From assembly GCA_022820025.1 (NCBI GenBank), contig JAJEGF010000069.1, positions 1 through 64,000 of the forward strand: DNA of 64,000 bases, written 5' to 3'. The translations under genes were made by a program, and so were the position numbers. Shown one piece after another: positions 22,919 through 61,644 of this stretch (positions are counted from its first letter, which is position 1; each line of letters opens with the position of its first letter). Below the pieces are notes generated by a model, which saw nothing but the letters and a program-made list of their open reading frames with translations, had not been told where the DNA came from and did no database searches. The stretch is from Chloroflexota bacterium. Lineage in GTDB: Bacteria; Chloroflexota; UBA11872.

Positions 22919-25117
22919 GTGTGGCGCCATTACCGGATCTTCGTGGCACTGGTGCTGGCAACGACTGCTGTGGCCAGCACCGCAACTAGCGCCGCCGCGC
23001 AGTGGCCGACGGGGTGTGTGGAGCTGAACGACATTGTCGAGCAGCACCTGGGGAACGCTGGCAACGTGGGCATTTACCAGCGGATCCATGGAGACCAGGC
23101 CGAAGCGGCGTGCCGGGCCGACCACCGCGCGGATGTGCAATCGACCTTTGCCTGGGCGTTTGAAACCTCAGCTGCAGTGACAGCAGCGTCCGCGGCCACC
23201 GCGGCATCGACGACATCACCGTTCGCTGGGGGATGGCCGACGACGTGCGTGTATCTGAACGACGTAGTTGAGGCGCACCTGGGGAACGATGACAACGTGG
23301 GCATATATACCCGGGCGTTTGGCGATCAGGCGGAGGCGCGTTGTCAGCAGGATCATGCCGAAGACGTTCGCCAGACATTTGCATGGGTAGGCCTATGCGA
23401 AGCGGCGACCGTCGCGCGCGCGGCCCGACCCGGCTACATCCGGGCATTTGATGCCGCAGGACCGACGGTGGGCGACCTCGCCGCATCAAGTCGTCAGCTC
23501 GAGCGGCTGCTTCTCGTCATGCCATGGCTGGGCTGTTTCACCTATCCATGGCTCGTCGACGGAATCTCAGACCCCGACCAGATGGCACTCAATGGTCTCC
23601 TGCTGACTGACGGCATCGACCGCGATCTCGCAATGTAGGTGGCGAGCGCCGACTGGTTTGCCGATGGAACAAACTCCACCGATATGTACAGCGGCGAAAT
23701 GTACTCCCTCCAATACCTTCAATTGATAGCGCAGAAGAGCAAGAGCCTGGCCGATCTGCTTCAATCCTTCACATGGCTTCAGGACGATCTGACATTCGAC
23801 GAGACAGACACGCTTCGGAGTCTAAATCGAATCGCAGAGCGAGACTTACAGTTCACGCTTGACATGGCTCGCGCACCGTGGGTTAGAGATGGACTGGCAG
23901 GTTATGAAGAGGACGCACTTGGGTCGCTCGGTCGACTGTTCCTTTCGAACCCGGATCTGGCCCGGCAGCTGTTAGCAAATACCGTGCATACGCCAGTTTG
24001 GTCGAGCGATATTCGGGTTATCGGAACGTTAGAGGACTTTGCCATCCACACTGACGCCCAGGGGCACAGGACCGACCGGCACCACCGGCTTGTGAGCACG
24101 CCGTGGTTCACGGACGGCCTTGATCCTCGAGAGCGAGCACTAGTCAATGCCCTGCGCCTGGTGGGAGTGAATGACCACACGGTGGACATCGATCTTCAGA
24201 TCAATCACAACTCACTCTTCGACCGCCTGCTCGAGCAACAGCACACCAAGTCATTGACATTCTCGCTTCCATTGACCGGGCCATTCAGAATCTGGGTGTT
24301 CGACGATAAACCGATATCCGAGGACCTTAACATTCTCAGTACCTTCGCCCAGGGACTGCGCGGCGCGGAGCGAATCGTGAATACGCCATTGCCGTTCAAT
24401 GACCTCGTGATATTGATGACGCGAGGGCCTACAGGAGACTTCGGAAAAGATGAGCCCACGTCTCTCACTGGCCTTTCAGGCTTGTGGCCACAGACGGTTT
24501 TGGTGAATCAGGATGGAATTATCAGGATCCATGAAACTCGGACTAATCTGATATACCAGATTGTAGCGAGTCTCTATTTCGATGAGAGCGCAGGTCCGAA
24601 TTACGCATACTTTGATCATCCTGATCCCAGAGCTCGGCTGCTTAATCCGAAATGGCTGGCACGCAGCGCCCAAGAGTTCATCAACGCATTCGCTAATGAC
24701 TCGCAGGGATCGCGTAGTTTCGCGGATCAAAACCACGAGTGGGAAACGGAGGCTCGATCGAAGTGCGCAGAGGAAGGACAATCAAACATATATGAGCTTT
24801 CGCTGCAGAAGAGTACTGTGCTCTATAGTCGAGCAGAGCCACTGCGGCATTGTGCGGACCTTTACGGGAGGATACTGCTCTACAGGCTCTTTACGACGCT
24901 CGGCGAGGAACGGATGTCGGTAGCCATGCGTGACCTCCACGTTTTGGCGGAACTGGATGGCGGGAGGAAAAACGCCGAGGGCATTTTGACTCCAAGCGAT
25001 AAGGATATTTACCATACATTTCTCCGGCACTCACCTCCGGATCTTCGTGATGAGGTTCGGCATTGGTATCACCACTTTCACGGCGGCCCTTTCGTTCACG
25101 AGGCGTTCCAAGTCTGA
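22919..25117 (+). pseudogene. Secreted protein with two N-terminal CxLND domains, interrupted by an in-frame TAG
   Basis: Two open frames (22919-23638 and 23639-25117) are in the same frame and separated by a single TAG at 23636-23638. Sequence on both sides reads as one protein: LNGLLLTDGIDRDLAM, stop, then VASADWFADG. From GTG 22919 (CAAGG upstream) there is a signal peptide ending AAAQ, then two copies of the 53-residue CxLND domain (bases 23003-23161 and 23234-23389), then about 570 residues of mostly helical sequence. Near the end, IIRIHETRTNLIYQIV and LARSAQEFINAF are arranged like a zinc-peptidase HExxH and downstream Glu, but the second His is missing. GTG directly after the TAG could allow restart. 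The second half is visibly more A/T-rich than its surroundings. Confidence 0.65.
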
Positions 25118-25163
25118 GGCACTGACCTTGGCCTGGGCTGCCAAAGACTCCCATGCCGCGCGG

Positions 25164-25892
25164 CTAAGGTTCGCCTAGGGCATCGGCGTCGAGGGGGGTT
25201 CTGGGGAGGGTGTTGTAGCGGAAGGCGGCGTCGAGGACGCCGTTGAGTTGGCGGCGGCGGGTGCCGGCATCGACGGTATCAATGGTGGGTCGCACGGTGG
25301 CCTGCCAGTACTGCCGGGCGGCGATGGCGTAGCTGCCGAGCACATTGAGCAGTTTGAGGTGGTACGTGGTGGCGATGCCGGGTGGGGTGAGCGACTGCAG
25401 GTCCTCCTCCGTTTCCCTGGCCAGATCAGCGAGCGCCAGCAGCGCCACGAGGCGTCGTTCATTGCTAATCGTCTCCCGCCGATGGGCCACATTGATGAGA
25501 CTGGCGTAGGCGGCACCGCTCTCGAACCGGCTACGCAGCCGGTCGGTGGCATCCGAATACACGGACAGCCTGGTGGTCCCAGGCGGCTGGGTTGGGCGCG
25601 GCCCGGCGGTCGCCCCCAAGGCTCGGCCGGCACGGCGGACGGTGGTGCCGTCGATCAGCGGCAGGGCGGGCGACGCGGCGGCGGCCGTAGGCGTTGGGCT
25701 CAGTTGAACTGGATACGGCGAGGCCGTACGGCGCTCAACGGACGGCGAACCGGGCGAGGTGGTGCCGAGAACCGCGAGTAGCGCAACGGCCGCCGCCACG
25801 GCTCCAAAGACCGCCAGGGCGGCCACCGTGCCGCCGGGGATCGGCAGGCGGTGGAGGACGCCCCGTCGCGCCGCGTCCACGCGCCGGAGCAC
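25164..25892 (-). CDS. Hypothetical single-span membrane protein
   Basis: A 242-residue protein of unrecognised family. It has one hydrophobic helix (about residues 22-44, TVAALAVFGAVAAAVALLAV), a Pro/Ser/Thr-rich stretch to about residue 105, then a soluble, mainly helical C-terminal domain of roughly 135 residues (RRETISNERRLVALLALADLA near its start). It would be anchored in the membrane with the C-terminal domain outside. GTG at 25892 is six bases after the trxB stop, so it is probably co-transcribed with trxB. No catalytic motif is seen. Confidence 0.6.
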   Translation of the reverse strand: MLRRVDAARRGVLHRLPIPGGTVAALAVFGAVAAAVALLAVLGTTSPGSPSVERRTASPYPVQLSPTPTAAAASPALPLIDGTTVRRAGRALGATAGPRPTQPPGTTRLSVYSDATDRLRSRFESGAAYASLINVAHRRETISNERRLVALLALADLARETEEDLQSLTPPGIATTYHLKLLNVLGSYAIAARQYWQATVRPTIDTVDAGTRRRQLNGVLDAAFRYNTLPRTPLDADALGEP

Positions 25893-25898
25893 GTGGCG

Positions 25899-26846
25899 TT
25901 ATCCGCTGACGGCGCCGGCCGCGGCGGGCTGCTGGCTTTCGAGACGGGCGATGAACTTCTCGGCCTCCATCGCGGCCTGGCAGCCCTCACCAGCGGAGGT
26001 GATGGCCTGGCGGAAATAGTGGTCCTGGGCCTCACCGGCCACAAACACTCCTTCCACGTTGGTGTGCATGTAGCGGTTGGAGATGATGTAGCCGTCCTCG
26101 TCCATCTCCAGCTTGCCCTTGAATATCTCGGTATTCGGGTCGTGGCCGATGAAGATGAAGAGTCCTTCGGTGGGGAAGTCGGATTCTTCGCCGGAGTGGA
26201 CGTTCCTCAGGCGAAGCGACTGCACGGCCTGATCGCCCTGGACGCCGGTGACGACGGTGTCCCAGACGTAGTCGATTTTGGGTTCGGCACGGGCGCGGTC
26301 CTGTAGGTAGGGACCGGCGCGCAACTGGTCGCGTCGATGGATGACGGTGACCCTGGAAGCAAAGCGGGTGAGGAACAGGCCTTCCTGGAGGGCGCTATCG
26401 CCGCCCCCGACCACGGCGACGGGCTGGTCCTTGAAGAACGCGCCGTCGCAGGTGGCGCACACCGAGACGCCGCGGCCCCAGAGTTCCTGCTCGCCGGGAA
26501 TGCCCAAAAGGCGGGGACTGGCGCCGGTGGCGACGATGACCGAGCGCGCCTCGTAGGTAGCGGACCGGCCGGTCAGGGTGAACGGCGGGCCGTCGAAGTC
26601 GACCTCGGTGATCTGGTCGTAGACGACTTCAGCGCCAAAACGCTCGGCCTGGCCCTGCATGCGCGCGGTGAGGTCGGGCCCGGTAATTTCCTCGAAGCCC
26701 GGGTAATTCTCCACGTCGTACGTGGTGGCGATCTGGCCGCCCAGGGCGTCGCCGGTGAAGACCAGGGTGGAGAGGTTGGCGCGCGCCGCGTATATGGCGG
26801 CGGTCAGTCCAGCCGGTCCCGAACCAAGTATCGCGACATCGTGCAT
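25899..26846 (-). CDS. trxB: Thioredoxin reductase
   Basis: This 315-residue flavoprotein has the FAD motif GSGPAGLTAA (residues 8-17), the redox-active CATC pair at Cys130 and Cys133, the NADPH-binding GGGDSALQEG near 147-156 and a C-terminal FAD motif reading GEAQDHYFRQAITSAGEGC. The last usually begins GD rather than GE, a mild deviation. The enzyme passes electrons from NADPH to thioredoxin in the cytoplasm. ATG at 26846 has GGGAGG seven bases upstream and is clearly preferable to the longer frame reaching 26909. It is divergent from a binding-protein gene across 117 bases. Confidence 0.93.
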   Translation of the reverse strand: MHDVAILGSGPAGLTAAIYAARANLSTLVFTGDALGGQIATTYDVENYPGFEEITGPDLTARMQGQAERFGAEVVYDQITEVDFDGPPFTLTGRSATYEARSVIVATGASPRLLGIPGEQELWGRGVSVCATCDGAFFKDQPVAVVGGGDSALQEGLFLTRFASRVTVIHRRDQLRAGPYLQDRARAEPKIDYVWDTVVTGVQGDQAVQSLRLRNVHSGEESDFPTEGLFIFIGHDPNTEIFKGKLEMDEDGYIISNRYMHTNVEGVFVAGEAQDHYFRQAITSAGEGCQAAMEAEKFIARLESQQPAAAGAVSG

Positions 26847-26963
26847 CGGGTCCTCCCGTACCTGACGCTTGGGGAAAGCCTGGCGCCCGCTCACGTAGCA
26901 TCGTCGCATGACGACGGAGCAGATTCCGCCTGAATCCTGACATATCGGACGGATTTAACTCGC

Positions 26964-28364
26964 ATGACGATCGGACCGAGGGGCCGCGGCCTGAGCCGAC
27001 GGGATGTTCTACAGGTTGGGATGGCCGCGGGGGCCGCGCTGTGCCTGGCCGCTTGCGGCGCGCCGATCGTGGTGGAGCGGGTGGTGGTGGTTCCCGAGCT
27101 CGTGGAGCGCGAAGTGGTGGTGGAGCGCCCGGTCTTCACCGAACGCGTGGTGATTGTCGAAAAACCGGTCATCGTGGAACGCGAGGTGGTCGTGACGCGT
27201 TTCGTCACCCCGCCGCCGACGGTCGCGGCGCGGACTGAACCGGCGCCGGAACCGGCGAAAGCGACATTGCACGCGGCCATCAGTTCCGCATTGGCTCGTG
27301 GCGGCCCGCCGGACCTTGGCGCAGTCACTTCCAGCGTCGATCTCAAGCTGGAGGTGCTGGACCAGGGCGGTGACAGTCCCGGCCGACTGTTGGCGCGGGC
27401 GGCGGCCGGGGACATGCCCGACCTGCTGGTTGGGGTCCCGGGCGGTCTGGTGACGGCGCTGGATGCTCTGGAGGCACTGGCGCCAATGGATTCGGCGCTC
27501 GGCGAGGACCATGGGTTCCTGGCGGAGATGCTGGCCCTGGGTCGGCGCGAGCGTGGGATCGTGGGATTGCCCATGAGCGGGCATCCGACGTACCTGCTGG
27601 CCGGTCGACGCAGGCTCGAATGGGCCGGGGTCGCCGAGATGGGGTCCACGTACGAAGCGCTCGAGCAGACCGCGCGTCGGCTGACGGACCCCGAAACGTA
27701 TACCTACGGGTTTGGCGTGATCGCGGGACTGCCCGAACTGGAGACGGTGGCAGGGTCGGCTGGGACATTTCCGGCGGACGAGGCGGCCGTGAATGCCTGG
27801 CAGTGGTACGCGAATCAGTGGCTGCGAGAGGACACGGCGCCGCCTCCGAGCGCCTGGGATGGTCAGGGTGCGGCGGGGGAGGCCGTGCTGGACGGGCGCG
27901 TGGCTCTGACGGTTGCCCATGGCCGGGCATTGTCGCGGCTGGCCGCGCTGCCGCCGGAGCAGCACTCCGAGTGGGAGATGTCGCCCCTCCCGTCCTGGCC
28001 TGAGGCCGAGCGGCGGGTTCCGATGGCAGCGGCGTTTATCGCAGCCGGAAAGGGCGACGACGGAACAGCCGCGGACGCAGCCGTTGCTCTGGCGGGCCTG
28101 GCGTCAACATTCAACGCTGGCCCGGCAACCCCGGCGAGAACGCCGGCGCTCAACGACGAGGCGGCACGGTTGGGGCTGGAACCGGACATTCTGCTGGAGG
28201 CTCGCGACGCCTGGAGGGCGCCGCTCGTGGAATCCGCAGACTGGCAGGCTCGCACAGCGGACCTGGACGTCGCCGTGCATCACAGCCTGACGCTGGGTAA
28301 GCCGGCAGCTGAGGTAGCGGCAGAACTACAGGATCGGTCACCTGGCGCGGGCTCGGCCGGCTAG
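26964..28364 (+). CDS. Tat-exported solute-binding lipoprotein with Val/Glu repeat region
   Basis: This 466-residue protein has a twin-arginine signal (LSRRDVLQVG at residues 10-19) and lipobox LAAC with Cys31. Residues 34-72 alternate short units of the type VVERVVVV, VEREVVVE, VIVEKPVIVE, a feature seen after the lipobox in other binding proteins of this window. The remaining 370 residues resemble a family 1 extracellular binding domain (DMPDLLVGVPGGLVTALDALE), somewhat shorter than usual. No permease is adjacent. Start ATG at 26964. The next gene, lgt, encodes the enzyme that lipidates such proteins. Confidence 0.75.
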   Translation: MTIGPRGRGLSRRDVLQVGMAAGAALCLAACGAPIVVERVVVVPELVEREVVVERPVFTERVVIVEKPVIVEREVVVTRFVTPPPTVAARTEPAPEPAKATLHAAISSALARGGPPDLGAVTSSVDLKLEVLDQGGDSPGRLLARAAAGDMPDLLVGVPGGLVTALDALEALAPMDSALGEDHGFLAEMLALGRRERGIVGLPMSGHPTYLLAGRRRLEWAGVAEMGSTYEALEQTARRLTDPETYTYGFGVIAGLPELETVAGSAGTFPADEAAVNAWQWYANQWLREDTAPPPSAWDGQGAAGEAVLDGRVALTVAHGRALSRLAALPPEQHSEWEMSPLPSWPEAERRVPMAAAFIAAGKGDDGTAADAAVALAGLASTFNAGPATPARTPALNDEAARLGLEPDILLEARDAWRAPLVESADWQARTADLDVAVHHSLTLGKPAAEVAAELQDRSPGAGSAG

Positions 28365-28448
28365 CCCATCCCAGCCGCGGGCCGGGCGGTCAGCAGAACG
28401 ACTCGGCGAGTACCATGGCCCCGACGCCACTTCGCGGACCGACTACCC

Positions 28449-29234
28449 ATGCCTGCCGTCGCCATTCCCTGGGATCCCGACCTTTTCGAGATCGGGGCGT
28501 TTCGGTTTACCTGGCACTCATTGTTTTCCGTGTTGGGCATCCTGGCGGGCATCTGGGTGGCGCAGCGTCTGGGGCGTCGGACGACGATCTCCAGCGATCA
28601 AGTCACCACGCTGGCGCTGTGGGCGGTGGGCGGAGGCATCGTGGCGGCGCGTTTCCTGTTCGTGATCGACAACCTGGACCTGTTTTCCAGCGACTGGGGA
28701 CGAATCCTTGCGCTGAATGACGGGGGCATCACCGTCTGGGGCGCTCCGCTGGGCGGCGCGCTGGCGCTCTCGCTGGCCGCGTGGTGGATGAAACTGGACG
28801 TGCGCAGCGGGTTGGACATTGGAGCTCCGGGATTGATCCTGGGCATGGGGATTGGACGCCTTGGCGACCTGATCAACGGCGAGCATCACGCGCTGGCCAC
28901 CGATTTGCCGTGGGCCGTCTACTACACGCACCGCAATGCCATCGGCCAAACGACGCCGGTGCATCCGGCCACGACGTATGAAATGTTGGGAGATTTTGCG
29001 ATCTTCGGCATCGCCATGTGGCTGGCCAGCCGCTACATCGGCCGCCTGTACATCTTCTGGACGGTGCTGGCGGGCTACGGTGGCATGCGATTCGGACTAC
29101 AGTTCCTGCGCATCGATCAGCAGGAAGTCCTGTGGGGACTGCAACAGTCGCAGATTATCGGGGCTCTGGCGCTGCTGGCCTTCGCGGCATGGGTTGTGAA
29201 CCGTGCGCGAGTTCGCTGGTTGGCTCGCACCTAG
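28449..29234 (+). CDS. lgt: Prolipoprotein diacylglyceryl transferase
   Basis: A 261-residue integral membrane enzyme with about seven helices. It has the Lgt signature region GMGIGRLGDLINGEHHA (residues 132-148), containing the essential Arg and the Asn/Glu pair. It attaches diacylglycerol from phosphatidylglycerol to the lipobox cysteine, the first step for all the lipoproteins predicted here. The early ITVWGAPLGG and the late GYGGMRFGLQFLR segments are also typical. Start ATG at 28449. The downstream lipoprotein gene overlaps or directly follows it. Confidence 0.9.
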   Translation: MPAVAIPWDPDLFEIGAFRFTWHSLFSVLGILAGIWVAQRLGRRTTISSDQVTTLALWAVGGGIVAARFLFVIDNLDLFSSDWGRILALNDGGITVWGAPLGGALALSLAAWWMKLDVRSGLDIGAPGLILGMGIGRLGDLINGEHHALATDLPWAVYYTHRNAIGQTTPVHPATTYEMLGDFAIFGIAMWLASRYIGRLYIFWTVLAGYGGMRFGLQFLRIDQQEVLWGLQQSQIIGALALLAFAAWVVNRARVRWLART

Positions 29235-31737
29235 CACCCAGCCGCGCCCGTTGCGCCTGAACGTATCGCGGGCGCTCGACGGCATCGGCCCGCGGACCAG
29301 GCGCTGGCGAGCAGGGGCGGTCGCAGGACTGTTTCTAGGTGCGCTGCTCGTTGGCAGTTGCGGCGAGAGCCCGCAGCCGGAACCTGAACCACGCAACGAG
29401 GTCACGGCTCAGCAGCCCGGCCTACGGCCGCGAATGTCGCGTCCAACGACTCCAGCGGCAGCGGCACCAGCAGGTGAGTCAGCAGCGACCGCATCACCGA
29501 CAGCAACCGCGAAACCATCGCCGACGGCAATCGCGTCGCCGGCGCTCGCGACCGACAGCCGCGCCGAGCCTCGTTCCGTGACGACGGCTCCAGCATCAGG
29601 ACCGCTTGCAACGACGACATCCAGCCCGGCGCCGGAGGCGTCCGAGAGGTCCGGAACAACTCCCGCGCCAACGCCGGCCACCCGGTCCAGGCCGACGCCG
29701 ACAGCGATCGAAACGCGGGCGGCCACTCCCTCGCCAACGCCGGCCACCCAGTCCAGGCCGACGCCGACAGCGACCGAAACGCAGGCCGCCACTCCAACAG
29801 TAACGCCGGCACCGGCGGTCTTCACGAGCGTGTCGCCGGGCAGGGACCACACGTGCGCCCTCGTGTCCGGGGGCGAAGTGCATTGCTGGGGCCCAAACAA
29901 CGACGACGGGCATTTGGACGTACCCGCCGATGTCAGGTTCAGTCAGATTTCGGCCGGAAATCGATACACGTGCGGGATTCGCGTGGACGGCGGCATCACC
30001 TGCTGGGGTAATAACAACCACATGAAGCTTGAAGCGCCGGCCGGGAGGTTTACGGCGCTGGACGCAGGCTGGGATCACGCCTGTGCGCTTGGAGCGAACG
30101 GGCCGGTGTGCTGGGGATGGAACGCCAACGATCGAGCAACCCCACCACTCGACGCGCCGTTGATCGCGATCGGAGCCGGCGCCGAGCACAGCTGCGGACT
30201 GACCGTTGCCGGCGCCCTGCAGTGCTGGGGCAAGAATGACAACGGACGTGCGGACTCGCTGCCCGGGCCGTTTCGAGATCTGGCGGTGGGTACCGCGCAC
30301 ACGTGCGTACTCCGGAGCGACGGCACGCCGTTCTGTCAGGGCGAGAATGCGCAGGGCCAGTCGGACTTCCCGGCCACGCCATTCGACGCAATTACCGCGG
30401 GCGATGATCACACCTGCGGAACGCGTCGTGACGGCCCGCTGGAGTGCTGGGGCGCGGAAAGCCAGATCAGCAATGTTCGGCTTACGGCGCCGGACGGAAT
30501 CTTCGCATCGGTGAGCGCCGGATATCGACAGACGTGCGCCCTGAATAACGAGGGCCAGGCCGCGTGCTGGAACCACCCATTTGTGACAGTGCCAACGCCG
30601 CCCTACGACAGCCTGAACTTTGAGGCTGCCGTACCGGACTACAGGCAGCAACAGCCCGTGGAAGCCTTTCCGTGGCCCGGCGGCGGGCTGCTGATTGCAG
30701 ATCTCGCCGGTCAGATCGCCGTGTATGAAGGCGGTCTGGAGCCTCGGCAAATCCTCGACATCACAGACAAGATATCGACGCGAGCCGGTGAGAAGGGCCT
30801 GCTGGGGGTGGCACTGGACCCCGAGTTCGAGTCGTATCCGTATCTGTACGTGTATTACACGGCCCGCAGCGAACACGAGGGAGGAGAGCCAGGCGCCCGG
30901 CTCTCGCGCTTCCCCGTTGTCGATGGACAGGCGACGCGTGAAGACGAACTCGTCATGCTGGAACATCCGGGCCTGTACAACCTGCATCAAGGCGGCAGCC
31001 TGCGGTTCGGTCCGGACGGGATGCTCTACCTGGGCATCGGCGACGGCTTCGAGTGCAGCGAATGCGCTCGGTTCACGGACACCTTGCTCGGCAAGATTAT
31101 CCGGATTGATGTGCGCGGGGCGACCGCCGAGCAGCCGTATCGCATCCCGGACGACAACCCCATGGTCGAGGATCCGGATAGCAGGCACGAGATTTGGGCC
31201 CTGGGGTTTCGCAATCCGTGGCGGATGGCGTTTGACTCGCGGACGGACGAGCTATGGGTGGCCGACGTCGGTGCCGGGTATGAAGAAGAAGTGTCGATCG
31301 TTACCAAGGGCGCGCATATGGGATGGCCGCTGTACGAAGGTTTTCTCTGCCGACGAGGTCCCTCAGAAAACTGTGACGCGGTCGCGGAAACGACGCTGCC
31401 GATTGCGACGTACAACCACTCGCACGGCTGCGCCGTCATCGGTGGCGTGGTGTACCGCGGGGCCGCGATTCCCCAGCTTGAAGGGGCCTACCTGTTTGGT
31501 GACCTGTGCAGCGGGCGGATTTGGGCCCTTGTGGGCAAGGGGTCGGGTGACCAGGCAGTTCTGGAGATTGCGAATCTGGATGCGTTGGTGGTGTCCTTCG
31601 GCATCGACGCGGATGGCGAGGTGTTGGCGCTTGCGTTTGGCGGGCACGTGCTGCGACTCGTTGAAGCCGCGGAAGGGTACTCGGGGCCGGAGACAATCAC
31701 ACCCAGGGTGACGACGCCCCCGGTGCCGACTACCTAA
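29203..31737 (+). CDS. Lipoprotein fusing Cys-rich RCC1 repeats to a PQQ-type sugar dehydrogenase domain (copy 1)
   Basis: 844 residues if started at GTG 29203; TTG at 29251 gives a more usual 37-residue lipoprotein leader. Neither start has a clear Shine-Dalgarno. The signal ends with LVGSC (Cys53 in the long form). A Thr/Pro/Ala-rich stalk runs to about residue 205, then seven or so RCC1-like units marked HTCAL and CWG up to about 465, then a glucose/sorbosone dehydrogenase-type propeller to about 830. In the propeller, NLHQGGSLRFGPDGMLY carries the expected catalytic His and EIWALGFRNPWRM is the family hallmark. It likely oxidises or binds sugars outside the cell. A paralogue follows at 31987. 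Confidence 0.8.
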   Translation: MREFAGWLAPSTQPRPLRLNVSRALDGIGPRTRRWRAGAVAGLFLGALLVGSCGESPQPEPEPRNEVTAQQPGLRPRMSRPTTPAAAAPAGESAATASPTATAKPSPTAIASPALATDSRAEPRSVTTAPASGPLATTTSSPAPEASERSGTTPAPTPATRSRPTPTAIETRAATPSPTPATQSRPTPTATETQAATPTVTPAPAVFTSVSPGRDHTCALVSGGEVHCWGPNNDDGHLDVPADVRFSQISAGNRYTCGIRVDGGITCWGNNNHMKLEAPAGRFTALDAGWDHACALGANGPVCWGWNANDRATPPLDAPLIAIGAGAEHSCGLTVAGALQCWGKNDNGRADSLPGPFRDLAVGTAHTCVLRSDGTPFCQGENAQGQSDFPATPFDAITAGDDHTCGTRRDGPLECWGAESQISNVRLTAPDGIFASVSAGYRQTCALNNEGQAACWNHPFVTVPTPPYDSLNFEAAVPDYRQQQPVEAFPWPGGGLLIADLAGQIAVYEGGLEPRQILDITDKISTRAGEKGLLGVALDPEFESYPYLYVYYTARSEHEGGEPGARLSRFPVVDGQATREDELVMLEHPGLYNLHQGGSLRFGPDGMLYLGIGDGFECSECARFTDTLLGKIIRIDVRGATAEQPYRIPDDNPMVEDPDSRHEIWALGFRNPWRMAFDSRTDELWVADVGAGYEEEVSIVTKGAHMGWPLYEGFLCRRGPSENCDAVAETTLPIATYNHSHGCAVIGGVVYRGAAIPQLEGAYLFGDLCSGRIWALVGKGSGDQAVLEIANLDALVVSFGIDADGEVLALAFGGHVLRLVEAAEGYSGPETITPRVTTPPVPTT
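29659..29790 (+). repeat. Two 66-bp tandem repeats in the stalk of the RCC1/dehydrogenase lipoprotein
   Basis: Bases 29659-29724 and 29725-29790 are direct repeats differing at only a handful of positions, each encoding 22 residues of the Thr-Pro-Ala type (TPAPTPATRSRPTPTA and TPSPTPATQSRPTPTA begin the two units). They lengthen the flexible stalk and have kept the frame. Confidence 0.85.
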
Positions 31738-31986
31738 CGTTGCAAGACGAGCCTTCGCTCCACCCAGTTCGCGCCGCGCTAGAGTGGCCGGCCCCTCGCC
31801 AACCGCGATTCGCGCACCGGTTGCAGAGCTTCCGGGCAGGGAAGCAGGGCGGTGTGGGACGATGGCCGGATGATGTCCCTCACGTTGTCAACAGGCGTGC
31901 CCCCGGGGCGGCGCGGATCTGATTGGGAGTCCGCGGACGGCGGACAACGTGGCCAACCCAGGGGATCTCGCACCAGAACTCCCCGT

Positions 31987-34215: not shown

Positions 34216-34308
34216 GGCAAGGTCGTTCAGACGCGCTCGCATTTGCCTCAGTGAGCACGGGGTGGCTTCGGAATTCCAGACCTTGCGTCCGTGTGCGACG
34301 ATGGGCGG

Positions 34309-36300: not shown

Positions 36301-36344
36301 GCGGAGCGGACTGAACTGGCGGATAGCTCTCCGCCGCGCTGGCG

Positions 36345-47025: not shown

Positions 47026-47031
47026 CGCCTG

Positions 47032-48123: not shown

Positions 48124-48182
48124 GGGTGCCTCAGCTTCAGGTCAGAGCCGCTCGTCGTCGGACGGCGCACCTGGGACCCTGC

Positions 48183-48503: not shown

Positions 48504-48507
48504 TGGT

Positions 48508-49464: not shown

Positions 49465-49561
49465 CTCGCGCTGTCCTTTGCCGACCGTGCCACGGAGGAT
49501 CGAGTCGCCATCGCCTGCGATATCCTACCGTTAGACCGGCAGCGGGCGAAGGCCGACGCCA

Positions 49562-50668: not shown

Positions 50669-50678
50669 GCGTACGTCC

Positions 50679-51584: not shown

Positions 51585-51694
51585 GGCAGACGCCTTTCGG
51601 GACCCCTGCCCGCCAGCAGTATACCGAACAAAGAGCGAACACCATCGTTGGATGTCCGCGCCCCTGAATCGCTGCGGGGGAGCGCGGAGCGGCC

Positions 51695-52834: not shown

Positions 52835-52947
52835 CAGGTGTGCTCCGGTCTCAGCGCGTAGTGCCTTGGCGGCAGCATAGTGCCGGTACCCTTCGCCGCC
52901 CGGATGCCTTCACTAGAACTGCCCCGCGGCAAGGGCCGCGGAGCGGC

Positions 52948-54087: not shown

Positions 54088-54321
54088 CAAGCTCGCTCCG
54101 TGCTCAGCGCCAAATGAGTTAGGCGAAGCATAGCGCCGACGGCCTCCACAGCACGCGGGGGGTGCCGACTGGGGGGGCGCCCCCGGCCGAAAGCCGTGGC
54201 TCAGATGAGACTGCTTGGCTGGGTGATCCGCGGACTGGGGCTGCGGGCGTCGTGAAATGGCCTCCTAAATTCGTACCCGCTCCCGAAAGGAAAGAAGACT
54301 GTCCGATGCGAATCTGCGAAG

Positions 54322-54430
54322 TCAGAGACCCTTGCGGCGGGTGAAGCGGAGGCCGAACCAAGTCTGGCACATAGCGGCGATCTTTTAGCCGACAAGGCCA
54401 CGAGCGAGGCCGGTTTTTCGGCCGACGACT
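54322..54430 (-). pseudogene. Remnant of the 3' end of a DUF3052-type gene
   Basis: Read on the minus strand, VVGRKTGLARGLVG, a TAA stop at 54385-54387, then KIAAMCQTWFGLRFTRRK matches the C-terminus of the intact gene at 55540-56331 (RETGLASGLVDYKIAA, QTWSGLRFTRRK). Only about 35 codons remain and a stop has arisen inside them. The match ends at a GACGAC sequence, where homology to the HAD gene begins. Confidence 0.7.
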
Positions 54431-54745
54431 CCGTTTGCCGAGGCGATCGTCAGGCTTACGCTCTCCTTTCTAGCGGGGCTGATCAAGCCTGATCCAGCCT
54501 TGAGCCCGCAGGCATGCGAGCGTATGGACATAGGGTCAGAACAGTGCGTGTACGTCGGCGATGCGGGTAGCCGCGAGTTGTCGGGCGCAGGTGAGGTTGG
54601 GATGCGGGCGGTGCAGATCAAGTCGCCAACGGACAGGACTGTCCCGCGGAAGTCGGAACGGGCTACGGGGCGGCGTGAGGCGACTGCGGCGCGCAGCGAG
54701 CTTCCGAGTCGGATCACCGGGGATTGGCGCAGGGTCGCCGATTGA
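54422..54745 (+). pseudogene. Remnant of the 3' half of the neighbouring HAD hydrolase gene
   Basis: The plus-strand frame reads PTTPFAEAIVRLTLSF, then GLIKPDPALSPQACER and CVYVGDAGSRELSGAGEVGMRAV. This parallels the intact HAD gene downstream (PTTAFAEYIDKPLFS, GLIKPDSRIYLRACER, CVYVGDGSNQELTGAQGVGMRAV). It lacks the N-terminal half with the catalytic Asp, so it cannot be a working hydrolase. A TTG-initiated product of 81 residues is possible but unlikely to be functional. It abuts the DUF3052 remnant. Confidence 0.75.
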
Positions 54746-54774
54746 CTGCACGAAGCGAGCGGACGGAGCGGCAT

Positions 54775-55482
54775 GTGCCGATACGGGCGGTGGTGTTCGA
54801 TCTGTTCAATACGCTGACGGCGCCCGAGGGCTCGAACGTGGCGGTTTTCAGGGCGTCGGTACGGGAGATGGGGCTGGCGGCGGGGGTGGACCCCGAGGGA
54901 TTCACACGGGGCTGGTTCGAGCTCTGGCGCGAGAGTTTTGACGGGACGTTTGGGACACCCGAGGCGGGTGTGCGGGGCGTGTGCGAGGCGATGGGCGCAG
55001 CGGTGGATGAGGCGGCTGTGCGGCGGGCCGTAGAGGTTCGTGCCGATTTCTCTCGGCAGTCATTGCAGCCGCGTGCGGATGCTGTTGACACGCTTAGCCG
55101 TGTGCGGTCGATGGGCCTCAGGACGGCGCTGATCAGCGATTGTGAGGCGGACATCCCTGACCTCTGGCCGACGACGGCATTCGCCGAGTACATCGACAAG
55201 CCACTGTTCTCCTGCATGGAAGGGTTGATCAAGCCCGATTCCAGGATCTACCTGCGGGCTTGCGAGCGGCTGGGGGTTGAACCGCAGGACTGTGTGTACG
55301 TGGGCGACGGGAGCAACCAGGAGTTGACGGGCGCGCAGGGGGTCGGGATGCGAGCGGTGCTGATCAGGACACCGGAAGAGCGGGCGGCTGCGTATTATTC
55401 GGAGCGCGGATCGTGGCGGGGTGAAGCGATTGAGGCGCTGAGCGAATTGCCGGATCTAATCGCCAGGGGATTCTCACCGTGA
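54775..55482 (+). CDS. HAD family hydrolase
   Basis: A 235-residue protein with all four HAD motifs: nucleophile Asp9 in VVFDLFNTLT, motif II Ser in ALISDCEADIPD, Lys in GLIKPDSRIY and the acidic motif IV VYVGDGSNQE. The DLFNT form resembles haloacid dehalogenase-like and phosphoglycolate-type phosphatases; substrate unknown. I prefer GTG at 54775, with a GGAG site upstream, over the longer frame from 54724. A partial copy of this gene lies immediately upstream. It converges on the DUF3052-type gene. Confidence 0.83.
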   Translation: MPIRAVVFDLFNTLTAPEGSNVAVFRASVREMGLAAGVDPEGFTRGWFELWRESFDGTFGTPEAGVRGVCEAMGAAVDEAAVRRAVEVRADFSRQSLQPRADAVDTLSRVRSMGLRTALISDCEADIPDLWPTTAFAEYIDKPLFSCMEGLIKPDSRIYLRACERLGVEPQDCVYVGDGSNQELTGAQGVGMRAVLIRTPEERAAAYYSERGSWRGEAIEALSELPDLIARGFSP

Positions 55483-55500
55483 TGCGGGAGCAGCGACGAA

Positions 55501-55556
55501 GAAAGCCCAAACTCTCGTCCAGCTACGAGCGTGGGTTGGCTAGCGGTTGGGCTTTC
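55501..55556. terminator. Stem-loop shared by convergent HAD and DUF3052-type genes
   Basis: GAAAGCCCAA (55501-55510) and TTGGGCTTTC (55547-55556) are perfect ten-base inverted repeats around a 36-base loop. The right arm overlaps the last codons of the DUF3052-type gene. Read from either strand the arm ends in a short T run, which fits a bidirectional terminator. Confidence 0.5.
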
Positions 55557-56331
55557 GGCGAGTGAAGCGAAGACCGGACCAGGTTTGGTCGATGGCAGCG
55601 ATCTTGTAGTCGACCAGACCGCTGGCCAAGCCGGTTTCGCGGACGACGCGCTCGGAGAGGTCGGACGTGACGCCTGAGGCCTTCTTGGGCCAGCAAATCC
55701 AGAGGCCGCCCGGGCCGGCCTTGGCGCCGTAACGATCGATGCGCTGTCTCAGTTCGCGCTGGGAGCCGACAAACCAGACGATCAGGTCGCAGCGGCCCTG
55801 GACGCGGCGGCGGAGGACAACAGCATCGGGCAATGCGCCCAGGGTGGCTTGGAATTCGTCGGGGGCACCGGGTGTCGCGACGGCGTAGCCGGGCTTGATG
55901 CCCAGCTTGCGTGACAGGGGCGTCCCGGAGTAGCCAGCCAGCGCGGACTCCGGTACGACGGGCTGGGACGGCGGGTTGCCAATGGCCTGGCGCAGGACAG
56001 GCTGGATGTTGGACCAATCGGCGTAGGCGGCGTCGGGGAGCAGCTGGCGGACACGGACGACCTTCGTGCGGTCGCCATCGACAAAGACGAGCGGGACTCC
56101 TCGGGTGACCTTCGTCTGGCGCATGGCCACGCCAACATCGCGGCCGTGGGAGGGCAGGCGACCGAGGTCAATGATCAAGGCGTCAGGCGGATTGGCTCGA
56201 AGTGCACGCAGGCCGGCGGGGTCAAGTTGAGAGTGGTCGACTTGGAACTCGTGGGCTGGGAGGCGCGCAGCGCGTTCAGCAGATTCGGCGGCGTTCCAGT
56301 GGATCAGGCGGATTCGCAACTCGTGTCGCAT
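55540..56331 (-). CDS. Receiver-like domain fused to a DUF3052-type domain
   Basis: A 263-residue protein. The first 120 residues look like a response-regulator receiver (PPDALIIDLGRLPSHG with a candidate phospho-acceptor Asp near residue 55, then RGVPLVFVDGD). The C-terminal 130 residues match the DUF3052 pattern: GYSGTPLSRKLGIKPG, DLIVWFVGSQREL, GGLWICWPKKASG and a basic end FTRRK. DUF3052 function is unknown. No sensor kinase is adjacent, and the receiver may be a non-phosphorylated pseudo-receiver. A remnant of its 3' end occurs at 54322. Start ATG at 56331. Confidence 0.65.
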   Translation of the reverse strand: MRHELRIRLIHWNAAESAERAARLPAHEFQVDHSQLDPAGLRALRANPPDALIIDLGRLPSHGRDVGVAMRQTKVTRGVPLVFVDGDRTKVVRVRQLLPDAAYADWSNIQPVLRQAIGNPPSQPVVPESALAGYSGTPLSRKLGIKPGYAVATPGAPDEFQATLGALPDAVVLRRRVQGRCDLIVWFVGSQRELRQRIDRYGAKAGPGGLWICWPKKASGVTSDLSERVVRETGLASGLVDYKIAAIDQTWSGLRFTRRKPNR

Positions 56332-56405
56332 GGCTGCTTCTCTGACGCCTCACTGAGGCCATCGTACGGGCATCCGACCTGCGGCGGGATGTGGAGCCGG
56401 CGAGG

Positions 56406-57770
56406 TCAGGTGGCCGAGCGAGGTGCCGCCAAGCCGTCGGGATCGATTTCGTCGGGGCGCAGATGCCAGATATCGCGGACCCAGAGCGGAACGCCGATTC
56501 CAACCGCTAGCGTGGCCAGACCGCCGAGCAGGATGGCGGCTGGGTTGCCATGATTCTCGGCGACCAAGGACAGAGGCAGCAAGCCAATGGGCGAGAGGCC
56601 GAAGGTCATCATGCGTAGCGCCATGACACGCCCGCGGAGGGCGTCCGGCACGAGCAATTGCAGGGCCATCTGGTTGACCGACATGTAGACCGACTGGCTG
56701 AAACCCATGCAGACCACGACAGCGGCCGCCGCCGCAAAGGAGCGAGTGAATGACAGGAGAATCAGCAACGCACCATAGGTGAGAATTGCCGCAACCAGGG
56801 CGCGGCCCTTGTCGCGAAACCGCGAGAACGTCACAACCAGCGCCGACCCCACCAATGCGCCGATACCCAAGGCGCCCATGAGGAAACCCACGGCTTCAGG
56901 GCCTCCGGCCAAGTCCTTACGCACGAACGCCGGTAACAGAATCATCAACGGCATGCCGAAGAGGGAAGGGCCCAACGCCAGCAGCATGAGCGCGAACATG
57001 ATGCGGGTGCGGGCCACGTAGGCGAAGCCTCCGCGCATGTCGGCCCAGGTTGAGGAGCGCGGCCGCGACGTACGCGGGGGCGGGACGACCCGCAGCATGT
57101 TGAGGCTGCTCCACAGATAACCACCAACTTGGGCGAAGTAGGACGCAGCGATGCCGACGGCCCCGAGCACCAGCCCGGCTACGGCGGGACCGAAGATGCG
57201 GGCCGAGTTGAGGGTGGCACTGTGCAGGCCGATGGCGTTGGCGAGGTGCTGGCGCGGCACCAGCCCGGCCACGAGGGCGGTACGGGCGGGCACGTTGATG
57301 GCGAACATGGTGCCCACGATCAGTGACGACACAGCCAGATGTGCGACATGTACCCGATTGGTGGCCACCAGAATGCCGATCGTCAGCATCAGACCAGCCA
57401 GGATCAGTTGGGCCACCAAAACCATGCGGCGTCGATCCAGACGGTCGGCCAGCACGCCGCCCAGCGGCGAAAGTAGCAGCATGGGGACAGAACGGAAGAA
57501 CGCCAGCAGGGCCAGCGTGAACTCTGAGCCGGTGAGTTCCAGCACCAGCCACGCCTGCGCGACCTGCTGCATCCAGAAAGCAACCTGGCTGCCGACGTTG
57601 GCCTGCCAGAGCCGGGAGTACTGCTGGTAGGCCAGGGCCGGCGCAACACGGTCGCGCAGGCGAATCAGCGGCCAGAGCAGAGAATCGATGAGCGACGATC
57701 CGATCAGCGGTTGCAGCCCGAAAGCTTCGGGCCCCGGCGGAGTGTGGGGGATGAGCGGTAACTTGGGCAA
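56406..57770 (-). CDS. Major facilitator superfamily exporter
   Basis: This 454-residue protein has about twelve helices. The loop motif GGVLADRLDRRRMVL lies between helices 2 and 3, and PDALRGRVMALRMM in the second half. It belongs to the same enterobactin-exporter-like MFS_3 group as the protein at 2028-3236. The N-terminal 50 residues are an extra cytoplasmic stretch. The end is Asp/Pro-rich and soluble. It is divergent from a secreted protein gene at 57895 with 124 bases between. Substrate unknown. Confidence 0.85.
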   Translation of the reverse strand: MPKLPLIPHTPPGPEAFGLQPLIGSSLIDSLLWPLIRLRDRVAPALAYQQYSRLWQANVGSQVAFWMQQVAQAWLVLELTGSEFTLALLAFFRSVPMLLLSPLGGVLADRLDRRRMVLVAQLILAGLMLTIGILVATNRVHVAHLAVSSLIVGTMFAINVPARTALVAGLVPRQHLANAIGLHSATLNSARIFGPAVAGLVLGAVGIAASYFAQVGGYLWSSLNMLRVVPPPRTSRPRSSTWADMRGGFAYVARTRIMFALMLLALGPSLFGMPLMILLPAFVRKDLAGGPEAVGFLMGALGIGALVGSALVVTFSRFRDKGRALVAAILTYGALLILLSFTRSFAAAAAVVVCMGFSQSVYMSVNQMALQLLVPDALRGRVMALRMMTFGLSPIGLLPLSLVAENHGNPAAILLGGLATLAVGIGVPLWVRDIWHLRPDEIDPDGLAAPRSAT

Positions 57771-57894
57771 CCGGCGGCTAGCCAGGCGCCGATGCGTTCC
57801 TCCGCCTTCGCGCCCACCCGTGCCAACAGACGGCCCGCGTTGCTAGTCTGCCCGGGTTGCCAAACACGCAGCGCTTCTGAGGAATCGCGACGAC

Positions 57895-59241
57895 GTGTCA
57901 CGAAGTGGTCGGACATTCTTGGTCGCGGTCGTGGCCACTCTCGCTGCGGCGGTCCTGTCTCCCGCGGTACACGCGCAGTGGCCGACGACGTGTGTCGATT
58001 TGAATGACATCGTAGAAGCCCATTTGGGCAATGATGGCAACGTCGCCATCTACCAGCGGGTCTTTGGCGACCAGGCGGAGCAAGCCTGTCAGAACGACCA
58101 TCGTGACGATGTGCGCGGAGTATTCGCCTGGGCATTTGAAGACTCGACGCAGTCCGATTTGGCCGATCTCCCGGACTTGGCTTGGCCAACGGGCTGCGTT
58201 GAACTGAATGACATCGTCGAGGCGCACCTGGGCAACGACGGGAATGTGGGTATCTACCAGCGCGCCTTTGCCGGAGCCGCCGAGTTCGCCTGCCGAGGCG
58301 ATCACCGCGATGACGTGCGAGGCGTGTTTGCATGGGCCTTCGGCGGCACGACGGTCCTCGTCAGCCAGGACCGGCCAGAATCGGTAGCGGCAGGGTGGTC
58401 GTCAGTCGCGGTCGGCGGATTCCACAACTGTGCGATTCGGATCGATGGAACGGTCGCCTGTTGGGGGCAACAGGCGGACGCCGCCGGGGGCAACTTCGGC
58501 AAAGCGGATCCGCCCCTGGGGAATTTTCAGACAGTGAGCGCCGGACTCGATCACTCCTGCGGCGTGCGCACGGATAACTCAGTTGCCTGCTGGGGATCGA
58601 ACGTCGCCTTTAGAGATCGCCACGTCGGTCAAGCGATCCCTCCAAGCGGCACATTTCAGTCGGTGAGCGCCGGGTACTTTCACACCTGCGGAGTCAGGAC
58701 TGACGGATCGGTCGCGTGCTGGGGTGATAACGGAGCTGGCGAGGCCGTCCCGCCGGCGGGCACTTTTCGATCGGTCAGTGCTGGGGCAAATCACACCTGC
58801 GGCGTGCGAACCGACGGGACGCTCTCCTGTTGGGGATCGAATCGCCAAGGACAGAGCTCTCCCCCGAGTGGAGGTTTTCAGTCAGTCAGTGCTGGCTTCC
58901 AACACACGTGCGGAGTGCGCATTGACGAGACAGTGGCGTGCTGGGGGTCAAACGTCGACAACTGGAACCGCGTCGTCGGTCAAGCCACCGCGCCGGCGGG
59001 GACGTTTCGGTCCGTAAGCGCCGGTCTGCACCACACCTGCGGCCTGCGAACGGATCGCACGGTGGCTTGCTGGGGCTCGAACACTGAGCGAGGACTCGAT
59101 CATGTTGGTCAAGCAATGCCGCCCGCCGGCGAATTCGCAAGCGTTGATGCCGGGCACAGCCACACCTGCGGACTGAAGACCGACGCGACCATCGCCTGTT
59201 GGGGGTGGAACGGTCACGGCCAAGCATCGCCACCGGCTTAG
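57895..59241 (+). CDS. Secreted protein with two CxLND domains and RCC1-like repeats
   Basis: This 448-residue protein has a Sec signal peptide ending near AVHA-Q (residue 28) and two copies of a 53-residue domain at residues 29-81 and 97-149. Each begins WPT-x-CV-x-LNDIV, continues HLGNDGNV and ends DHRDDVRGVFAWAF. About seven Cys-rich RCC1-like units follow to the end, each with SVSAG, HTCGVRTDG and VACWG. The RCC1 units here are short and Gly/Ser-rich, as in bacterial propellers, and the Cys pairs probably form disulfides outside the cell. Start GTG at 57895. No anchor is visible, so the protein is likely released or cell-wall associated. Confidence 0.78.
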   Translation: MSRSGRTFLVAVVATLAAAVLSPAVHAQWPTTCVDLNDIVEAHLGNDGNVAIYQRVFGDQAEQACQNDHRDDVRGVFAWAFEDSTQSDLADLPDLAWPTGCVELNDIVEAHLGNDGNVGIYQRAFAGAAEFACRGDHRDDVRGVFAWAFGGTTVLVSQDRPESVAAGWSSVAVGGFHNCAIRIDGTVACWGQQADAAGGNFGKADPPLGNFQTVSAGLDHSCGVRTDNSVACWGSNVAFRDRHVGQAIPPSGTFQSVSAGYFHTCGVRTDGSVACWGDNGAGEAVPPAGTFRSVSAGANHTCGVRTDGTLSCWGSNRQGQSSPPSGGFQSVSAGFQHTCGVRIDETVACWGSNVDNWNRVVGQATAPAGTFRSVSAGLHHTCGLRTDRTVACWGSNTERGLDHVGQAMPPAGEFASVDAGHSHTCGLKTDATIACWGWNGHGQASPPA

Positions 59242-59399
59242 CTTCGAGAGCCGGGTAGACCAGTCGCCGTCCGGATTCGGCGGAGGCGACGGCTCGTCCG
59301 CTTCGGAGACCTCCCGGCAATGAGGCTCGGGCATCCAGGCGGCAGCTTTGGACGAGCCCGATTGCTCCACGACGTAGAGAGCGCCGGATGAAAGAGCCA

Positions 59400-59817
59400 C
59401 GCCGATCACGTGGCTGGAGATACGAGCGACGGCCAAGAGGAGTTCGCGACGGATGTGGCCAACGATGCGGGCCTCGGCAGTGCGCTGCTTAAGCTCCCAG
59501 GTCACGGGCCGCACGCGTCGCTGACGTTTGGGCGAGGCGACGACAGGGAGGTTGGAGATGTATCGACCATCCTCGGTTATCCCCTCAGTCTTCAGACGCG
59601 TACAAGCTGCTCGGCAACGTCACAACCCGCCAGACGGGTTGGCCGCGAACGGATGCGGCGGCAAACCTTGGCAACAAGTGGCGGACCGGCCCTCGATGTC
59701 ACGGGCGGCGTGATCGGCGTGGCGACAAAGCGAGCATGCCCGGGGATCGAGCGTGGGTACGACGAGGCGAATCTGCTGAGAGTCGGTGATTCAGCACAAC
59801 AGCTGATTCACGTCTGA
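59400..59817 (+). pseudogene. Decayed trypsin-like protease gene
   Basis: A frame around 59410-59817 reads SALLKLPGHGPH, ILGYPLSLQT, GGPALDVTGGVIGVAT and a late DEANLLR. These correspond to VALLKLPGSGHP, ILGYPLCFDT, GGPAFNLRGGVIGVAT and VESANFL of the intact protease at 60205-61644. The catalytic-Ser region has lost GNSGG (TSGGPALD remains) and the N-terminal half with the catalytic His is missing or scrambled. It is a remnant of a former copy of the neighbouring gene. Confidence 0.7.
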
Positions 59818-60000
59818 ATTGATGCCCACCGAGCGCAGACCGACTCGCCAATCGGGCCGGCGCCGGCGACCGCAAGTTGGACGGCCGTCGACGCGGGGAT
59901 CAAGCACACATGCGGAGCCCCGAGCGACGGGACAGTTGCAAGCTGGGGCTCGAATCCCGACCGGAAAGCGACCCGTCGGCCTGATCGAACGCGAGATCTT
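59818..60000 (+). pseudogene. RCC1-repeat remnant in frame with the decayed protease
   Basis: After the TGA ending the protease remnant the same frame continues IDAHRAQTDSPIGPAP and then AVDAGIKHTCGAPSDGTVAS-WGSNPD, an unmistakable RCC1-like unit with one Cys lost (ASW for ACW). This suggests that the ancestor joined a protease to RCC1 repeats. The rest of the stretch up to 60204 (about 200 bases) has no recognisable coding content; it must hold the promoter of the next gene. Confidence 0.6.
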
Positions 60001-60204
60001 CGGCGACCTCGCTTCAGAGTCTGCAGCCAGAAGCGACCCTGCCAGGCGGGACAGCCGAAACTAGAGTGGGTTATGCGAGTCTGCCGGCTCTCGCTGCCTA
60101 CTGATGTAGGCCGCTCCTCGCAGCCATCATGGGCGCAGCGCGTTAATGCGCAGTCACGGGACGGCTAGTATCGAGTCATGCGACCTCGAGTTGACCTCGT
60201 CTGA

Positions 60205-61644
60205 ATGCGGTACATCCGCGCCGCTCTGCTCGCGCTTGGTGTCGGTTTGGCAATGGCTCCCCAAGTGTTCGCTCAGTGGCCGACGACATGCGTTGAGCTC
60301 AATGACATTGTCGAAACGCACCTCGGCAACGATGCCAATGTCGGCATCTACCAGCGCGTGTTTGCCGACCACGCCGAGGAACGGTGCCAAAGCGATCACC
60401 GGGTCGACGTGCGAGGAGTCTTCGCGTGGGCCTTCGATGAAACGGGAGCGACGACGCCGAATCTGCCAGCACAGGTCTGGCCCTCCGACTGCGTGCAGCT
60501 CAACGACATTGTCGAGAACCACCTTGGCAACCGCGGCAATGTCGGCATCTATCAGCGCGCCTACGGCGAGGGAGCGGAGGTGGCGTGCAGGAGCGATCAT
60601 CGGGACGACGTCCGAAGCGTTTTTGCCTGGGCATTCGATGTCGCCACAACCACAGCCACCGGGCAACCGCTCTCCGTGGCCGAAGTGGTGCAGCGACACC
60701 AGGACGCGGTTCGCTATGTCCGGACGGCCGACGAAGCCTGCGCGAGTGCCTTCGTGGTGAGTCCGGACGGCTATCTCGTCACCAACAGTCATGTGATCAG
60801 CGGGACACGCCAGGCGACCGTGGGGACGCACGACGGACGGGAGCAGCAGGCGACCGTGGTCGCCGACGATCCGGAGTCAGACGTAGCGCTGCTCAAGCTG
60901 CCGGGTAGCGGACATCCCTTCGTGCCGTTTGGTAGCTCCACGAGCCTCGGGCTCGGCGAGGACCTCGTAATCCTCGGATATCCACTGTGCTTCGACACGC
61001 TCACAGTTACCCGTGGAATCCTGTCGGCACGGCATCTGGACTGGCTGCAGACTGATGCTGCAGCCAACCCGGGAAATAGCGGTGGACCCGCATTCAATCT
61101 GCGCGGTGGGGTCATCGGCGTGGCGACCGCCAAGCTGGGAGGCATTGATAGGGTTGAGTCGGCGAATTTCCTAATTCACGGCGATCTTGTTCGCCAGATC
61201 GTTGACGACTGGATCGCCCGCCACCGCACCGGCAACCTACCACCGCTCCCGGAACCGCAGCCCCTGCCGCACCCGTCGGAACTGATCGAGGCCGTCGGGC
61301 TGGCCACGGGTTCGGACTGCACGTCCGGACCGGATCATCCTGGCATCTGGCAAGAATCACTTCAGGGCGATCCGATGCCGGAGTACTTCTGCGTGGTCTA
61401 CCAGGTGAAGTGGTGGCCGGCGGACTGGAGTGTGGAGTCACATTGGACGTGGCCGGGGGGCGGAACCAACTCAACCGATCCGAGGCTGTGGTGCGAGCCC
61501 ATTCGGAACCGGTGTGAGGGCGGTTACATGAAGCTGGCCTGGCACAACCCGGACCGCGCCTCTGCGGACTTTGGAGGGACGCTGGACGTCGCACTGCACG
61601 TCAACGGCGATCACATTCGGACCGACCGGTTCTGGGTGTCGTAG
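60205..61644 (+). CDS. Secreted trypsin-like serine protease with two N-terminal CxLND domains
   Basis: This 479-residue protein has a signal peptide ending VFA-Q (residue 24) and two 53-residue CxLND domains at 25-77 and 92-144 (WPTTCVELNDIV, HLGNDANVGIYQR, FAWAF). A Deg/HtrA-type protease domain from about 155 to 335 has an intact triad: His196 in TNSHVI, Asp226 in ESDVALLKL and Ser292 in GNSGGPAF. A C-terminal domain from about 350 is Trp- and Cys-rich (WWPADWSVESHWTWPGGG) and of unknown type. No PDZ domain is present. Start ATG at 60205. Likely an extracellular protease; the CxLND pair may target or regulate it. Confidence 0.82.
   Translation: MRYIRAALLALGVGLAMAPQVFAQWPTTCVELNDIVETHLGNDANVGIYQRVFADHAEERCQSDHRVDVRGVFAWAFDETGATTPNLPAQVWPSDCVQLNDIVENHLGNRGNVGIYQRAYGEGAEVACRSDHRDDVRSVFAWAFDVATTTATGQPLSVAEVVQRHQDAVRYVRTADEACASAFVVSPDGYLVTNSHVISGTRQATVGTHDGREQQATVVADDPESDVALLKLPGSGHPFVPFGSSTSLGLGEDLVILGYPLCFDTLTVTRGILSARHLDWLQTDAAANPGNSGGPAFNLRGGVIGVATAKLGGIDRVESANFLIHGDLVRQIVDDWIARHRTGNLPPLPEPQPLPHPSELIEAVGLATGSDCTSGPDHPGIWQESLQGDPMPEYFCVVYQVKWWPADWSVESHWTWPGGGTNSTDPRLWCEPIRNRCEGGYMKLAWHNPDRASADFGGTLDVALHVNGDHIRTDRFWVS

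Follow-up and report, generated by a model that had tools for sequence, protein, structure and literature searches.

The SLH domain (PF00395) is a unit of about 55 residues that occurs in repeats at one end of many different exported proteins and retains them non-covalently at the cell surface, and the type I dockerin (PF00404) is a small, duplicated, helical module that is likewise borne by varied exported proteins. Here we describe a 53-residue domain that recalls both, found as adjacent pairs in three genes of a 64,000-nucleotide stretch of Chloroflexota DNA (GenBank assembly GCA_022820025.1, contig JAJEGF010000069.1, positions 1 to 64,000; hereafter the window). None of the libraries searched contains a description of the domain family, and we lean, on balance, toward seeing in it a new, small, mobile exported unit for non-covalent retention at the cell surface, a job already known from SLH-like domains.

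The likeness to SLH lies in the proposed role, the size, the repetition and the terminal place on diverse exported proteins. However, no profile match to PF00395 was obtained, the domain carries two invariant cysteines, and it is present in one or two copies at most, as opposed to the usual three copies of SLH, which assemble on a pyruvylated wall polymer. With dockerins it shares a small, duplicated, helical build on varied exported carriers, but it does not match PF00404, lacks the repeated calcium-loop motif and has a disulfide-compatible hairpin. Excalibur (PF05901) is another small, cysteine-containing exported module near nucleases, and it stands at the C-terminus of an SNase protein (locus L005) that bears one copy of our domain; it differs in sequence and position, and Pfam matches only the C-terminal segment 230-273 of L005.

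The three genes and their six domain copies, each copy with its E-value against a profile hidden Markov model (HMM), are as follows.

Gene 1, 22919..23638, plus strand: signal peptide, domain pair and the start of a large uncharacterized module; its stop is an in-frame TAG at 23636-23638
Gene 1 signal peptide, 22919..23002, plus strand: VWRHYRIFVALVLATTAVASTATSAAAQ, likely cleaved between AAA and Q, a pattern common to most of the 106 proteins considered below
Gene 1 domain copy 1, 23003..23161, plus strand: E=1.6e-33
Gene 1 domain copy 2, 23234..23389, plus strand: E=2.9e-32
Gene 2, 57895..59241, plus strand: signal peptide (57895-57978), domain pair and seven RCC1 repeats (Pfam)
Gene 2 domain copy 1, 57979..58137, plus strand: E=9.6e-36
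Gene 2 domain copy 2, 58183..58341, plus strand: E=1.6e-32
Gene 3, 60205..61644, plus strand: signal peptide (60205-60276), domain pair, Trypsin_2 (HtrA-like) protease and an uncharacterized C-terminal part
Gene 3 domain copy 1, 60277..60435, plus strand: E=1.2e-33
Gene 3 domain copy 2, 60478..60636, plus strand: E=8.7e-33

An earlier note on this DNA had placed six copies, as adjacent pairs directly after signal peptides, in these three genes, and the HMM matches agree with its coordinates exactly (E from 1e-35 to 3e-32, the profile having been built from domain copies of the same genome and the E-values computed within that genome). Its signal peptides were correct, as were its RCC1 and trypsin-like modules, and the two cysteines it called conserved are both invariant in 74 diverse copies. 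The six window copies are 60-81% identical to one another, and ten positions never vary among the 74 copies: W2, P3, C6, D11, G18, Y26, A34, E35, C38 and H42.

An antiparallel helical hairpin is strongly predicted for the fold. AlphaFold modeled the single domain from 74 rows with a pLDDT (predicted local distance difference test) of 95.1, placing helices at residues 6-17 and 25-49 ahead of the terminal FAW, and modeled the domain pair from 57 pairs with a mean pLDDT of 87.8 and a pTM (predicted template modeling score) of 0.80, with helices at 6-16, 25-53, 74-84 and 93-122. Such a hairpin would set Cys6 opposite Cys38, and a disulfide between the two is therefore likely. A shorter form of the domain (44-47 residues, without the FAW end) precedes Cache or GLUG modules at L016, L017 and L080:1201-3510.

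The earlier note had recognized no described family, and neither did any comparison made here. Pfam gave no match on the consensus or on most pairs even at E<=10, with scattered sub-cut-off matches on two pairs, and NCBIfam gave none over the domain region at its own cut-offs. The best PHROGs match (E=0.0065 over 27 residues, to a family of unknown function, and not on the consensus) was not credible. A kinship with the Arc repressor, suggested by the best PDB sequence match (E=0.03 over a 29-residue stretch, with an i-Evalue of its own of 10), was judged to be chance. By fold, Foldseek found nothing better than E=4 in PDB for the pair, nothing at E<=10 for the single domain, and a best match in BFVD that was not credible (E=3.5). 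In open-licence full-text papers no description of the domain was found by context.

Purifying selection acts more strongly on the domain than on its cargo. In 8 of 8 orthologue or homologue groups its rate of nonsynonymous change (dN) was the lowest among the parts compared, which marks it as a real, strongly constrained coding unit. The ratio of dN to the synonymous rate (dN/dS) was 0.04-0.13 for the domain in seven of the eight groups and fell below that of its own module in all eight. Median values were 0.06 for the domain, 0.27 for the linker and 0.39 for the cytochrome part in the cytochrome c group; 0.04 against 0.14 for the remainder in the SNase group; and 0.06 against 0.24 for the repeats in the ankyrin group. 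In the trypsin group the two were nearly equal (0.129 for the domain, 0.146 for the module), and in the fn3 group both were higher in the same order (0.21 and 0.58).

Architecture, carried modules and distribution

Among 106 distinct proteins or fragments with the domain, 73 have two copies, 33 have one and none has more. The adjacent pair proposed as the unit thus holds for the three window genes and for those 73 proteins; single copies are common, and so the pair as such is not essential. Placement likewise follows the early description in most cases, since in 91 of the 106 by a strict rule the domain begins at the first or second residue past a signal peptide whose end is A-x-A, as a rule with A before the cleavage and QWPTTC after it (by eye, a signal peptide directly precedes the domain in 93, plus one whose upstream sequence is masked). 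It fails in two groups: in eleven cytochrome c proteins a Pro/Thr/Ala linker leads to a C-terminal pair, and the ankyrin proteins carry one copy at each end.

Behind the shared domain lie unrelated modules, as the window had suggested, and they are far more varied genome-wide and in relatives than in the three genes. They fall into 27 sequence groups, including RCC1 (6-16 repeats), Trypsin_2, fusions of Trypsin_2 with RCC1, PD40 propellers, LRR, ankyrin, Sortilin/BNR propellers, cytochrome c, SNase with Excalibur, fn3, Cache, SBP_bac_5, GLUG, GmrSD_C and GHL15.

A conserved N-terminus ahead of a variable C-terminus that includes SNase, GmrSD_C (HNH-like) and protease modules might recall the trafficking domains of polymorphic toxins. 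This explanation is disfavored and seems extremely unlikely, because toxins are a minority among the C-terminal modules, the genes inspected were not seen to be followed by a small immunity gene, and the domain is itself C-terminal in some proteins. Moreover, the modules persist across species as stable orthologues: two or more members are found in 14 of the 27 groups, and the cytochrome c and BNR domain proteins are present in nearly all species of the window genome's genus.

It is also very improbable that the domain is an inhibitory or folding prodomain that is removed after export, even though it follows the signal peptide in most proteins and is present on proteases. Non-enzymes carry it too, in one group it lies at the C-terminus and in another at both ends, and it is the most conserved part of the protein, which would be unusual for a discarded propeptide. 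The earlier note had offered a targeting, anchoring or activation unit; with non-enzymes among the carriers, the domain at either end and no sign of a cleaved prodomain, activation finds no support.

Several features of this architecture are consistent with self-assembly, in which hairpins would pair between molecules to form a surface lattice or heteromeric complexes, as in a dockerin/cohesin-like or S-layer-like scaffold. The copy number is one or two and never more, and the ankyrin proteins are capped by one copy per end. In addition, first and second copies cluster as different types, as if their roles differed (13 label changes against 46 with shuffled labels, in a quick tree used for this purpose only and with a contrast inflated by near-copies). 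Against this, there is no dockerin or SLH match, many proteins are single-copy, and no conserved partner protein turned up, although no systematic search for one was made; we consider self-assembly improbable.

The domain is confined to a few related lineages, and recurs in many genes beyond the window locus. The genome from which the window comes (3.63 Mb in 92 contigs) has 19 copies in 12 genes, and 12 of 13 species genomes of its genus have 10-33 copies, the exception being a small genome that is 76% complete. In the sister genus four of six genomes have none, one has four copies and one a decayed copy, and of the four genera in a second family of the order, three have none and the remaining one has genomes with 9 and 12 copies. 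Within the class (41 genomes searched) the domain was not found in the other 17 genomes, nor was it found elsewhere among 400 genomes sampled across the phylum. One weak match, a decayed copy at L130 (genome G060), was set aside as a functional member and left uncounted.

A scan of genome contigs returned 102 relatives, of which 78 loci were kept, 77 of them in metagenome-assembled genomes (MAGs) named Chloroflexi or Chloroflexota. Horizontal spread to Rhodothermales, as a copy in MAG Plut_88865 (L055) might imply, was rejected: its 4,865-bp contig is 97% identical over its whole length to the Chloroflexota locus L065 and bears the sole copy in that genome, and so was judged to be misbinned. 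The public genome thus likely contains a binning error. No copy was found in viral contigs (IMG/VR), phage records or plasmids, and carriage as mobile-element or phage cargo was dropped on these grounds.

Proposed retention at the cell surface

There is reason to think that these proteins need a means of staying on the cell. Omp85 was absent from all 24 genomes of the order, while 7 of 14 control genomes were positive, and from this absence the cells are probably monoderm. A protein released by signal peptidase I from such cells would be lost unless held. The domain proteins show few conventional means of holding on: a lipobox pattern occurs in 1 of 106, a decayed fragment, and a later transmembrane stretch, as substrates of sortase (LPXTG) or PEP-CTERM systems would require, also in only 1 of 106, the motif itself not having been scanned for.

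On some homologous modules without the domain, recognized anchors stand instead. In two genomes of the second family an SBP_bac_5 protein consists of a signal peptide and one domain copy ahead of the solute-binding module (L144, L145), and a protein 63% identical to these (L146, genome G023) has no domain but a lipobox (LVLAAC) and a Pro/Ala-rich linker. Similarly, trypsin modules bear the domain pair in L167-L174, and L175 and L216, with trypsin modules 67-70% identical, have no domain; their N-terminus has a long transmembrane helix, with a linker rich in Pro and Thr. Genome G093 encodes one trypsin protein of each kind. Interchange with recognized anchors is thus found, in few cases, for both solute-binding and trypsin modules. 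The window offers a comparable contrast among RCC1 proteins, and holds ordinary lipoproteins together with Lgt, whose gene indicates that lipoprotein anchoring is available to this organism:

Comparison gene, 29251..31737, plus strand: a protein with RCC1 and GSDH modules that carries a lipobox (LLVGSC) but not the domain; the reverse is true of the RCC1 protein of gene 2
Comparison gene, 28449..29234, plus strand: Lgt, prolipoprotein diacylglyceryl transferase

The lipoprotein anchor (lipobox, Lgt/LspA) and the domain would share an outcome and, as L146 and L144 show, a place in homologous proteins. They differ in that the former is a covalent lipid on Cys+1, whereas the domain proteins have signals of the signal peptidase I type without a lipobox. 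Replacement by a lipobox or a transmembrane helix in two families suggests that the domain does an anchor's job, with a putative partner in the envelope; this replacement is the most telling evidence for retention, and it agrees with the targeting or anchoring part of the earlier suggestion.

The mechanism we propose is a simple one. The Sec signal peptide places the domain at the first residues of the mature protein, and the folded hairpin may bind non-covalently to a component of the cell's own outer surface (a wall polymer, an S-layer protein or a membrane protein), with the pair perhaps raising affinity through avidity. Proteins cleaved by signal peptidase I would then stay on the monoderm cell rather than diffusing away, and the carried modules would be displayed on the bacterial surface, which in sponge-derived members would face host tissue.

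Several observations weigh against retention. The clear anchor swap among close relatives is seen in two module families only, and other domain-less relatives carry another exported module instead (cytochrome c, L158; BNR, L208), while remote domain-less BNR relatives (L209-L215) have a signal peptide and nothing more. The shortage of lipoboxes, which favors retention, is a rough count by a home-made rule on redundant loci: none of 83 domain proteins has one, and 7 of the 85 other exported proteins do (Fisher p=0.014). No obvious permease adjoins the solute-binding genes in the stretches read, and a need for membrane proximity is not proven by them. Finally, the restriction to few genera would also fit a host-directed domain that binds a ligand.

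The main rival takes up this last point: once released, the proteins would attach through the pair to a host glycan or to some component of the sponge matrix, and so bring their eukaryote-like repeats and enzymes to host tissue. It is a serious alternative because the modules include eukaryote-like repeats of classes (ankyrin, LRR, fn3, PD40) that are enriched in Ircinia symbionts (PMC9531527). In addition, four named domain-bearing MAGs carry the label jk18x, which denotes MAGs from Caribbean Ircinia sponge microbiomes (PMC9531527), and several of the Chloroflexota with the domain are known sponge symbionts. However, the domain is also borne by modules that one would expect to meet the bacterium's own needs (cytochrome c, a Cache sensor domain, a family 5 solute-binding protein), and a plain lipobox or transmembrane helix can substitute for it in relatives. 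We therefore regard host binding as unlikely, though by no means negligible. Further MAG labels (SB0662, COS, RHO) resemble those of sponge metagenomes, which is unconfirmed.

The second recurrent exported module mentioned above (GGVxxFGFPxSDAR...RIRQYFQAAVLEYHPE) occurs on domain-less cytochrome c, trypsin and BNR proteins (L158, L177-L182, L208) in G023 and the sister genus. It has no Pfam match, and an LGFP-like identity suspected by eye was set aside for want of Pfam support.

Gene 1, a relic and neighboring frames

Two further features lie in the window.

Gene 1 module, same-frame continuation past the TAG, 23639..25117, plus strand: 92-95% identical to L090/L091, in which the frame is open
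Third gene of this type, decayed to a relic, 59410..59960, plus strand: between genes 2 and 3, with trypsin-like then RCC1-like remnants and no intact frame

Gene 1 is not the plain short protein it was first taken for. In the relatives L091 and L090 it is a single open frame of 748-768 aa, which the TAG at 23636-23638 cuts in the window copy. Given the high identity of the downstream frame to these relatives, the TAG would be a sequencing error, a recent nonsense mutation or a codon that is read through in an unusual way. The 'degenerate peptidase-like' label given to its module draws some weak support from a remote homologue (L129, 24% identical there) that has HEMAH, but the window copy has no HExxH and no Pfam match.

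Within the relic, 59416-59802 is 42% identical to the trypsin module. A relative (L031) has a decayed domain copy (L031:5400-5633) between its two counterparts of genes 2 and 3, and L074, L068 and L175 each combine Trypsin_2 with RCC1 repeats in a single protein, where the window has two neighboring genes. Upstream of gene 1, at 22154-22807 on the plus strand, lies an open frame with a long AAVAG tandem repeat, opposite a frame at 21625-22497.

Possible display of eukaryote-like modules in sponge symbionts

Eukaryote-like repeat proteins abound in sponge symbionts. Secretion systems able to deliver such proteins were few in a survey of sponge MAGs, which left the delivery route open (PMC8163846). 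With the domain, ankyrin, LRR, fn3, RCC1 and propeller modules follow an ordinary Sec signal and, on the argument made above, may be kept on the cell, which offers a concrete and testable route.

It is possible, and we put this forward tentatively, that the domain underlies a lineage-specific display system of sponge-symbiotic Chloroflexota, in which 10-33 domains per genome would place eukaryote-like repeats, proteases, nucleases, sensors and redox proteins on a monoderm surface via a putative receptor. If true, this system would give symbionts without injection systems an uncomplicated way to export eukaryote-like proteins through Sec. The HMM would mark out a share of the surface proteome in these uncultured bacteria, and the domain is a candidate tag by which they might be labeled or captured. 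The receptor, if found, would reveal anchoring chemistry in the poorly known envelopes of the Chloroflexota.

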